Source: Roseococcus pinisoli
Lineage (GTDB): Bacteria > Pseudomonadota > Alphaproteobacteria > Acetobacterales > Acetobacteraceae
Direction of reading: 5' to 3'
Length of the DNA stretch: 64,000 nucleotides
Assembly: GCF_018413645.1 (NCBI RefSeq)
Contig: NZ_JAHCDA010000002.1
Coordinates: forward strand, 620,001 to 684,000
The notes under the pieces: generated by a model
What the model saw: the letters and a program-made list of their open reading frames with translations, nothing else
Databases searched by the model: none
What the model was told of the DNA's origin: nothing
In this document: positions 6,855 through 48,038 of the stretch, piece after piece
Position numbering within the stretch: position 1 is the first letter of the stretch
Layout of the letters: each line of letters opens with the position of its first letter
Position numbers and translations under genes: made by a program

Positions 6855-7314
6855 GAAAGATTCGCGCGAAGCGCGCCTCCTCGGCCGCCATGGAGGCCGC
6901 GACCGGCTGCGTCACATCCAGCGCATGGATCGCGACGGCGCCCGAAACCTCGTCCTCCCCGGCCGGCAGCGTGCCCGGCTGCAGGCTCGACCAGGTGAGG
7001 AAGGCGTCGCGCTGCACCGAGGGCGCGGTCACCGGCGCGTAGGGGACGAAGCCGGGCGACAGCCGAAGGTCGAAAGCCCGGCACGCCACCTCGGTCCCGG
7101 CCCGAAGGGCCTGGAGGGGATAGCGCAGCAGCAGGCCCAATAGAGGCAGCGGGCGCAGCTGAAGGACGCCGGCCGGCAGCAATCGCAGGCTGAACCAGGT
7201 GGCGATGGCGGCCGTGGCGGCGCCGACCGCCAGCCCCTTGAGGTCGGCGCCCCCGATCACGACCCAGACCGCCAGCAGCCCCACGAACCTCGGAAGCGCC
7301 GCGAGCGGGGGCAT
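6847..7314 (-). CDS. mnhE: Mrp-type Na+/H+ antiporter subunit E
   Basis: 155 aa, two N-terminal membrane segments followed by a cytoplasmic domain. The segment LLRYPLQALRAGTEVACRAF and the later FVPYAPVTAPSVQRDAFLTW with SSLQPGTLP are the MnhE core (the TPGT-like motif reads SLQPGT). The end, IFRG, matches usual MnhE endings. The ATG at 7314 begins only one base after the stop codon of the RND pump gene, with no room for a separate promoter, so it is almost certainly read through from the pump genes. This places the antiporter under the efflux operon's control. Confidence 0.85.
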   Translation of the reverse strand: MPPLAALPRFVGLLAVWVVIGGADLKGLAVGAATAAIATWFSLRLLPAGVLQLRPLPLLGLLLRYPLQALRAGTEVACRAFDLRLSPGFVPYAPVTAPSVQRDAFLTWSSLQPGTLPAGEDEVSGAVAIHALDVTQPVAASMAAEEARFARIFRG

Positions 7315-17769: not shown

Positions 17770-17844
17770 TCCGGCGTGGCGCAGCGGTAGCGCAGCGGAC
17801 TGTTAATCCGTTGGTCGTAGGTTCGAATCCTACCGCCGGAGCCA
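17770..17844 (+). tRNA. tRNA-Asn (GTT)
   Basis: 75 nt including an encoded CCA. Acceptor arms TCCGGCG and CGCCGGA pair fully; the D-arm is GTGGCGCAGCGGTAGCGC; the anticodon stem-loop is GCGGA-CTGTTAA-TCCGT with anticodon GTT at 17802-17804; the T-arm holds GGTTCGAATCC. Complete and normal. Confidence 0.95.
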
Positions 17845-20523: not shown

Positions 20524-20820
20524 CCTCTGCACCTCTCCCATCGCGTAGAGAATGCGGAAGTCTCGATCGTCAGTCGACGACTAAGCGCCTCGGGCGAGAT
20601 CGCCCCTAGGGCCTCCAGCTATGGCGTTTCCCTGAAATATGGCGCTTCGCGGCGTCCCACTCTGAGCTTGAAGCGCACGATCGAACGCTTTCAGCTTTGT
20701 ATACGGCGGCGCCGCGCGCTGCCGCCAGAGAAGGCGACGGGCCGGCAGCATCAGCCCCAAAAGTAAAGCGCCGCCCCTTTGACGGGACGGCGCTTCCATT
20801 GTCCTGCCTAGGCGGACAGC
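20524..20820. other. Region between the 24-codon ORF and the protease gene
   Basis: 297 bp holding the terminator at 20766-20795. The rest (20524-20765) has open frames on both strands without credible starts. If transcripts of the small ORF read through the terminator, this would be the long leader of the protease gene; otherwise the protease promoter must lie here. Confidence 0.5.
20766..20795 (-). terminator. Intrinsic terminator after the 24-codon ORF
   Basis: On the minus strand: AAGCGCCGTCCC, loop GTCAAA, GGGGCGGCGCTT (12-bp stem with one G-U), followed by TACTTTTGG. This is the best intrinsic terminator in the window. It starts 25 nt after the stop codon of the small ORF and about 240 nt before the protease start, so it can close a short transcript or act as an attenuator in front of the protease. 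Confidence 0.8.
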
Positions 20821-20895
20821 TCAGCCGAGCTCGATCCCCGTGGCGGGGGTCGGGCTCATGAGATCCGTCATATGCGGCATGTGACAATGAGACAT
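20821..20895 (-). CDS. 24-residue His/Met/Cys-rich peptide, strong Shine-Dalgarno
   Basis: A short ORF that ordinary length cut-offs miss. It begins MSHCHMPHMTDLM and ends TPATGIELG. The first 13 residues hold three His, four Met and one Cys, a composition typical of copper or nickel ligands; the last 11 have none. Met1-Ser2-His3 would form an amino-terminal Cu/Ni (ATCUN) site if Met is kept. Upstream is AAAGGAGGTG at 20901-20910, nine contiguous bases complementary to the 16S rRNA end, with 7 nt between GGAGG and ATG. A strong terminator follows. No known precursor or leader peptide was recognised. It may be a metal-responsive leader, a small metal-binding peptide, or the precursor of a modified peptide; no modifying enzyme is adjacent. 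Confidence 0.7.
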   Translation of the reverse strand: MSHCHMPHMTDLMSPTPATGIELG

Positions 20896-20900
20896 CGGAC

Positions 20901-20910
20901 CACCTCCTTT
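20901..20910 (-). promoter_or_regulatory. Near-perfect Shine-Dalgarno of the 24-codon ORF
   Basis: AAAGGAGGTG on the minus strand, five bases (GTCCG) before the ATG at 20895. It is stronger than the ribosome-binding site of any other gene in the window and is the main evidence that the ORF is translated. A TTGAAA box (minus strand, about 20950) and a TACATA box (about 20930) upstream could form a promoter, but their spacing of 20 nt is too long to be convincing. Confidence 0.7.
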
Positions 20911-20992
20911 CAGTTGTTGAATGAAGATATGTAGGTTGGGCCAGGCGGGCGACTTTCAATCCTTCCGCATGATGATGTCTGCCAGGGCAGCA

Positions 20993-47966: not shown

Positions 47967-48038
47967 TGCCGGGTGTCGGGATTGAACCGACGACCTACCG
48001 CTTACAAGGCGGTTGCTCTACCGCTGAGCTAACCCGGC
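47967..48038 (-). tRNA. tRNA-Thr (TGT)
   Basis: 72 nt without encoded CCA. Minus-strand acceptor arms GCCGGGT / ACCCGGC with discriminator A; D-arm GCTCAGCGGTAGAGC; anticodon loop CTTGTAA (anticodon TGT); T-arm with GGTTCGAATCC. Complete. Its 3' end faces the run of small orphan genes at 46.3-47.7 kb. Confidence 0.95.

Follow-up and report, generated by a model that had tools for sequence, protein, structure and literature searches.

The closest described system is the CC2171 family of Rfam (RF01867), whose consensus is GAAAGGAGGUGAUCCAGUGUCUCAU and whose Rfam type, 'Gene; sRNA', does not include an open reading frame (ORF). The founding paper on CC2171 of Caulobacter is said to be Landt's, of 2008. 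In the literature searched, seen partly in excerpts and with this founding paper outside the search, neither a function for RF01867 nor a description of an ORF or of 16S complementarity in CC2171/RF01867 turned up. The RNA family is already in Rfam. The stress-induced 'cuckoo'/CcsR small RNAs of alphaproteobacteria carry CCUCC motifs, the complement of the motif in the RNA treated here, which likewise comes from an alphaproteobacterium and lies in a 64,000-nucleotide stretch of the Roseococcus pinisoli genome (the window). The sole expression evidence seen for an RF01867 RNA is that for MH_s33 of Mesorhizobium huakuii, a 215-nt sequenced transcript annotated as RF01867 (PMC5596092). MH_s33 is placed in the same Rfam family as the window RNA by this annotation, and the passages available from that source give no function. 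Another short alphaproteobacterial RNA with a translated mini-ORF, rnTrpL/peTrpL, is described in excerpts of PMC10117765 as a trpE attenuator with a functional peptide, whereas the window RNA has neither an attached operon nor a conserved peptide.

The explanation preferred here, to which about an even chance is given, is that the RNA, of about 155 nt, both folds as a structured RNA and serves as a miniature mRNA, in which selection would act on ribosome loading and not on the peptide; regulation by this RNA in times of stress would be its likeliest role.

Anatomy and identity of the minus-strand unit

The whole unit is carried by the minus strand, a point absent from the preliminary description, whose account of a strong Shine-Dalgarno (SD) sequence, followed by a 24-codon ORF and then by a 12-bp terminator, is accurate (Table 1). 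The ORF is translated as MSHCHMPHMTDLMSPTPATGIELG, with three His, four Met and one Cys in residues 1-13, as had been counted, and the distance from GGAGG to the ATG is 7 nt. The terminator stem, AAGCGCCGTCCC/GGGGCGGCGCTT, includes one G-U among its 12 bp and starts 25 nt past the ORF stop. With at most one mismatch, the 15-mer GAAAGGAGGTGRTCC has a single occurrence in the entire 4.79-Mb genome, at the window locus (the reversed pattern, used as control, gave three matches), and copies of the complete unit are present in further genomes, which bears out the earlier view that such a unit is unlikely to arise by chance.

Table 1. Features of the CC2171-like locus, in window coordinates
Feature	Position	Strand	Evidence
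CC2171-like (RF01867) structured RNA, model 1-159	20767..20919	-	cmscan 72.5 bits, E=2.4e-15, gathering 75
-35-like element ATTGAA of predicted RpoH-type promoter; family consensus CTTGAA	20955..20960	-	PWM of 61 relatives; window score 15.0
-10-like element CCAACCT, N15 from -35; family consensus CCCAnnT	20933..20939	-	predicted
Extended Shine-Dalgarno GAAAGGAGGTGGTCC	20897..20911	-	15/15 positions pairable with 16S 3' end GGATCACCTCCTTTC, one G-U
ORF, 24 codons, ATG 20895-20893, stop TGA 20823-20821	20821..20895	-	start, frame and stop kept in relatives
Closing stem P1, 5' arm CATTGTC, codons 3-5 (letters of the supposed metal-ligand head)	20883..20889	-	folds, Rfam structure line, own-versus-swapped test
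Closing stem P1, 3' arm GACAATG	20797..20803	-	folds, Rfam structure line, own-versus-swapped test
Intrinsic terminator hairpin, 12 bp, then short T-rich stretch	20766..20795	-	sequence and folds

The statement that no described family matches the unit has to be withdrawn. In a cmscan search at relaxed threshold, the unit aligns to RF01867 'CC2171' untruncated and over the full length of the model, including the closing stem and the terminator. As its score of 72.5 bits is 2.5 below the gathering cut-off of 75, the unit was missed by a default-threshold scan, and the RNA is therefore named CC2171-like, or homologous, and not a thresholded member. Relatives of the window locus bridge to RF01867 members above the cut-off: two of the nine loci scanned at the gathering threshold are window-subtype relatives that exceed it (L078, 83.2; L059, 76.5), and L097 scores 90.5. 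The window RNA shares with RF01867 the 5' element GAAAGGAGGUG(A/G)UCC, the start codon, the closing stem and the terminator, and differs from the consensus in having ATG for GUG and GGUC for GAUC.

Relatives and genomic contexts

A tblastn search of 60 genomes with the 24 residues gave matches of 23-24 residues (E<0.002) in three congeners, one of which has two copies, and weaker matches of nearly full length, with E about 2, in unannotated regions of two plasmid records from Sphingobium; these two matches likewise come with the SD, stem and terminator. The exact DNA pattern SD+ATG+CAYTGYCAY matched 67 genomic stretches, mostly from Sphingomonas, Sphingopyxis and other sphingomonads, and also from Roseococcus/Rubritepida, Xanthobacter, Brevundimonas and Rhodospirillaceae. 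RF01867 itself was found at E<=0.001 in 46 of 193 alphaproteobacterial genomes, six of these 46 being above the gathering cut-off; in the control for this search, one of 14 genomes matched, that of Caulobacter vibrioides. In the near set, made up of the own genome and its relatives, 26 of 41 genomes have RF01867, and within the genus, own genome included, 17 of 21.

Two copies of the RNA at separate places are seen in the Rubritepida MAG G007 (L004, L017), Sphingomonas natans, Rhodospirillaceae R-7 and G047 (the other loci being L036 with L086 and L055 with L066). On the Sphingobium plasmids pTomTYG74a and pTomTYG72a, of about 1 Mb (L024, L025), the RNA lies unannotated between arylsulfatase and exodeoxyribonuclease III genes. 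Two subtypes, GGTC/ATG, to which the window RNA belongs, and GATCC/GTG, coexist within the window's genus (among L128-L144), some genomes having the sphingomonad-like one and others the subtype common elsewhere; such mixing within one genus hints at replacement or horizontal transfer.

Among 20 loci of relatives, which represent 16 distinct places within the genus and family and mostly have 1.5-kb flanks, none has a gene in common with window 10-32 kb, and in eight of the 20 the RNA itself is the sole match to this region. This speaks against the proposed partnership with the DUF2339 protein or the protease next to the unit. With its own terminator and without common neighbours in the genus and family loci compared, the RNA is read here as a stand-alone gene. 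A leader peptide or attenuator was rejected, since the unit has its own terminator and no downstream gene is conserved in the 20 loci; a modified-peptide (RiPP) precursor was also rejected, as no modification enzymes are among the four nearby proteins scanned (DUF2339, Trypsin_2-domain, MFS_1 and histidine kinase).

Reading frame, start signal and RNA structure

Both genome surveys together gave 73 distinct RF01867 places, all of which were inspected. An SD is present in 67 of these, each time followed by ATG, GTG or TTG, and is missing from six, all with E>4e-4. The six (L181, L183, L185, L186, L187 and L191; 6 of 25 weak CM hits) were left out and are read here as false hits; as true-looking hits occur at similar E, they could be diverged members. 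ORF length was never a ground for dropping CM hits that contain an SD. Three loci of the pattern-found set (L065, L073 and L088, the last truncated) were left out before counting, and 141 members were reduced to a non-redundant set of 72 representatives, 49 of them from CM searches.

In these 72 relatives the start codon is ATG (41), GTG (25) or TTG (6), and GGAGG is followed by the start at a spacing of 7 in 71 and of 6 in the remaining one. A frame-0 stop falls within 14-35 codons in 72/72, at worst 72/74 because L065 and L073 had been removed before the count, compared with 20/72 and 21/72 in frames +1 and +2 and with an expectation of 17.6 under dinucleotide shuffling. The second residue is Ser in 69/72, six times by the synonymous codons TCA, TCC or TCG. 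Of 138 distinct gap contexts inside the ORF, 43 have a length divisible by 3; past the ORF the figure is 17 of 292, and the contexts are non-independent. The ORF is genuine as an ORF and, judged from its translation signals and the comparison of relatives, probably translated. In L065 (Allosphingosinicella MAG; 165 codons) and L073 (Sphingopyxis MAG; 13 codons), the SD and start are intact and the usual stop position is lost, through either real loss or assembly errors.

Past Met-Ser, the peptides have nothing in common across subtypes (e.g., MSNEIIWIF, VSHRCVSRP, LSSERSNLR and MSSDSEHCR). For codons 6-24 of the window subtype, pN/pS is 1.49 in frame, compared with 0.67 and 0.82 when the two alternative frames are read (186 pairs from 35 relatives with a 24-codon ORF). 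As to the preliminary description, its translated small protein is upheld in the translation signals and not in a peptide sequence, which drifts, and its check on relatives is answered in two ways: start, frame and stop are kept, and synonymous changes are no commoner than non-synonymous ones.

As the in-frame ratio is unlike protein conservation, folding was tried and an RNA reading adopted. In most single-sequence folds among those listed, CAUUGUCA, in codons 3-5, pairs with the downstream UGACAAUG, and the terminator hairpin follows. When the arms of this closing stem, P1, were compared with swapped arms by RNAduplex, own arms paired better, with z values of -8.9 (all 72), -6.9 (GATCC subtype, 44) and -4.2 (GGTC subtype, 27), which, like those for helix P0 below, are indicative only because swaps leave phylogeny in. 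In the window subtype, the distance from the stop to the P1 3' arm is 15-24 nt in 20 of the 21 representatives with a motif-located arm (27 in total) and 35 nt in the other. Across the family, the stop-to-stem distance ranges from 1 to 65 nt over 70 representatives, two of the 72 being too weak-stemmed to place, and a tight spacing rule is disfavoured by this looseness.

These findings bear on the possibility that the RNA is a small mRNA for a functional peptide of 14-35 residues, of which the length or general character matters and not the sequence. Complete translation signals, a length-limited frame and the conserved Ser2 fit such a peptide, and in Sinorhizobium annotated sRNAs host 33% of the 54 translated sORFs newly discovered there, according to the part of PMC10117765 available. 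Yet past Met-Ser no residue is common to all subtypes and RNA structure is the stronger constraint, and a functional peptide is considered unlikely.

The start signal is longer than an ordinary SD. In two congeners the 16S 3' end is CGGCTGGATCACCTCCTTTC, and therefore the 5' element of the family is the complement of the last 15 nt of 16S, which we take to be its entire single-stranded 3' tail. With G-U allowed, pairing to the 16S end is complete (15/15 positions) in 51 representatives and covers 14 or 15 positions in 70/72, counts on which it bears that the SD was partly imposed by the pattern search and favoured by the CM. The exact 15-mer is present in four of eight genomes searched, at two places each in G003 and G004 (the 16S end and the CC2171-like RNA) and at the RNA only in G015 and G047. 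The 16S 3' end was not found in the window's own genome, a draft that seems to be without it.

Could the RNA be purely non-coding? It would then act in trans as an sRNA, with GGAGGUGAUCC as a seed that pairs with C-rich stretches of mRNAs or of other sRNAs; its ORF would be an accidental product of the SD-like seed. The catalogued sRNA type of RF01867, the strong structural covariation and the unconserved peptide with its pN/pS of 1.49 are in line with this; however, variation of the start among ATG, GTG and TTG only, at near-fixed spacing, a stop in range in every representative, retention of Ser2 through synonymous codons and a 15-nt match to the 16S end that exceeds the needs of a seed argue for translation, making a non-coding sRNA rather improbable.

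A second helix, P0, would pair the flank of the SD and start with a copy of the 16S-end sequence that lies inside the ORF. In the GATCC subtype its arms covary (z -7.4, p<=0.0002, n=44; own -11.82 versus swapped -10.38 kcal/mol), with partners such as GATCCAG/CTGGATC, GATCCTG/CAGGATC and GATCCCG/CGGGATC; in the GGTC subtype of the window, covariation of P0 was not found (z +1.0, n=27) and a matching element is present in 14/27 only. P0 would cross P1 as a pseudoknot, thereby hiding the start. A universal SD-sequestering pseudoknot was considered and is supported in the GATCC subtype only; it is not claimed for the window locus. In single-sequence folds of 30 relatives, the probability that GGAGG is unpaired ranges from 0.00 to 0.65, and because this pairing varies so much among relatives, an RNA thermometer can be argued neither way from such folds.

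An SD-sequestration switch, sensing temperature or a metabolite, was also weighed. In such a switch, the 16S-end mimic within the ORF would pair with the SD and start in the pseudoknot across P1 until a signal frees the SD. The covariation of flank and ORF partner in the GATCC subtype favours it, but the window's own subtype lends no support and no downstream gene is known as a target, so that a switch of this kind appears quite unlikely.

Promoter and proposed mode of action

Upstream of the RNA, 61 relatives, the window locus included, have CTTGAA-N15-CCCAnnT at a near-fixed distance, which resembles the RpoH1 consensus CTTGAA-N15-16-CCTATAT given in an excerpt of PMC4843759. The PWM score at the window locus is 15.0; the background levels are 10.7 (95%) and 16.6 (99%). 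Scores above the 95% level are obtained for 21/27 of the window subtype versus 3/43 of the other subtype (among the 44 GATCC-type representatives, one had too little upstream sequence for scoring), a test that is partly circular as the PWM was trained on the same subtype. Among heat-shock genes, four of five Hsp20 genes in two g57 genomes, of another genus, score 17.6-20.7 and the fifth 2.9; of the GroES genes there, three score 7.7, 1.4 and 1.3, and two were unscored (short loci). In the window genome, the Hsp20 genes (3.0 and 9.9) and GroES genes (3.1 and 7.0) are all under the 95% background, and in the congener G008 the Hsp20 genes score 6.8, 5.6, 14.2 and -3.6 and GroES 5.4. Support from GroES promoters was not obtained: the six scorable of eight genes are all under the 95% background. 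As neither the Hsp20 nor the GroES genes of the window genome score high, it is the family and the published consensus, and not this genome, that support the RpoH reading. Overall, an RpoH-like promoter, of the type used in heat and oxidative stress, would drive the RNA in the window's clade and in sphingomonads.

The RNA consists of a 5' element complementary to 16S, an adjoining start, a stem from codon 3, a stop within the stem-enclosed domain and a terminator. If it is both structured and translated, as preferred here, 30S subunits would dock very tightly through the 5' element complementary to the 16S end, and ribosomes would translate 14-35 codons and then release. Ribosome loading would open P1, and ribosomes would leave inside the domain, ahead of the terminator. 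The peptide would be a by-product, and loading, stem opening and exit would be what selection keeps. Under stress, the folding or fate of the RNA might report, or use up, free 30S subunits, and we infer for it a possible role as sensor or decoy. Translation could be weak because the stable stem from codon 3 should hinder initiation.

If selection acts on the start signal, the frame and the stop, as the comparison indicates, RF01867 is mis-typed and represents a translated RNA with a drifting peptide, and its function must therefore be ribosome engagement; this would be an unusual case of translation being selected without selection of protein sequence. Wider still, and doubtful at present, is the proposal that CC2171-like RNAs form a class of natural ribosome-engaging RNAs that is widespread in alphaproteobacteria. 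They would capture 30S subunits by pairing with the whole single-stranded 16S tail, let the ribosome run across a folded domain and leave it by means of a disposable ORF of 14-35 codons, and in this way sense or buffer translation capacity in stress, the peptide being irrelevant.

A copper/nickel peptide, a metal-responsive leader or a modified-peptide precursor partnered with a neighbour is very improbable: MSHCH is invariant in 64 subtype relatives, but for nearly all of them His3, Cys4 and His5 had been fixed beforehand by the pattern used in the search, the His/Cys codons form the covarying P1 arm and are lost in other relatives (VSHRCVS, MSSDSE, MSNEII and LSSERS), and the unit has its own terminator and, among the loci compared, no common neighbours, those in the window encoding DUF2339, Trypsin_2, MFS and histidine kinase proteins. 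The metal-binding peptide was accordingly rejected, its ligands not being conserved as protein residues. Small ORFs with 'motif-rich' heads may, as a caution, be RNA stems in disguise.

Other RNA genes were noted in passing. The window has a tRNA-Asn(gtt) at 17770-17844 (+) and a tRNA-Thr(tgt) at 47967-48038 (-), and the Sphingomonas deserti locus L078 has a terC RNA (RF03067) above the gathering score at 6879-6940.
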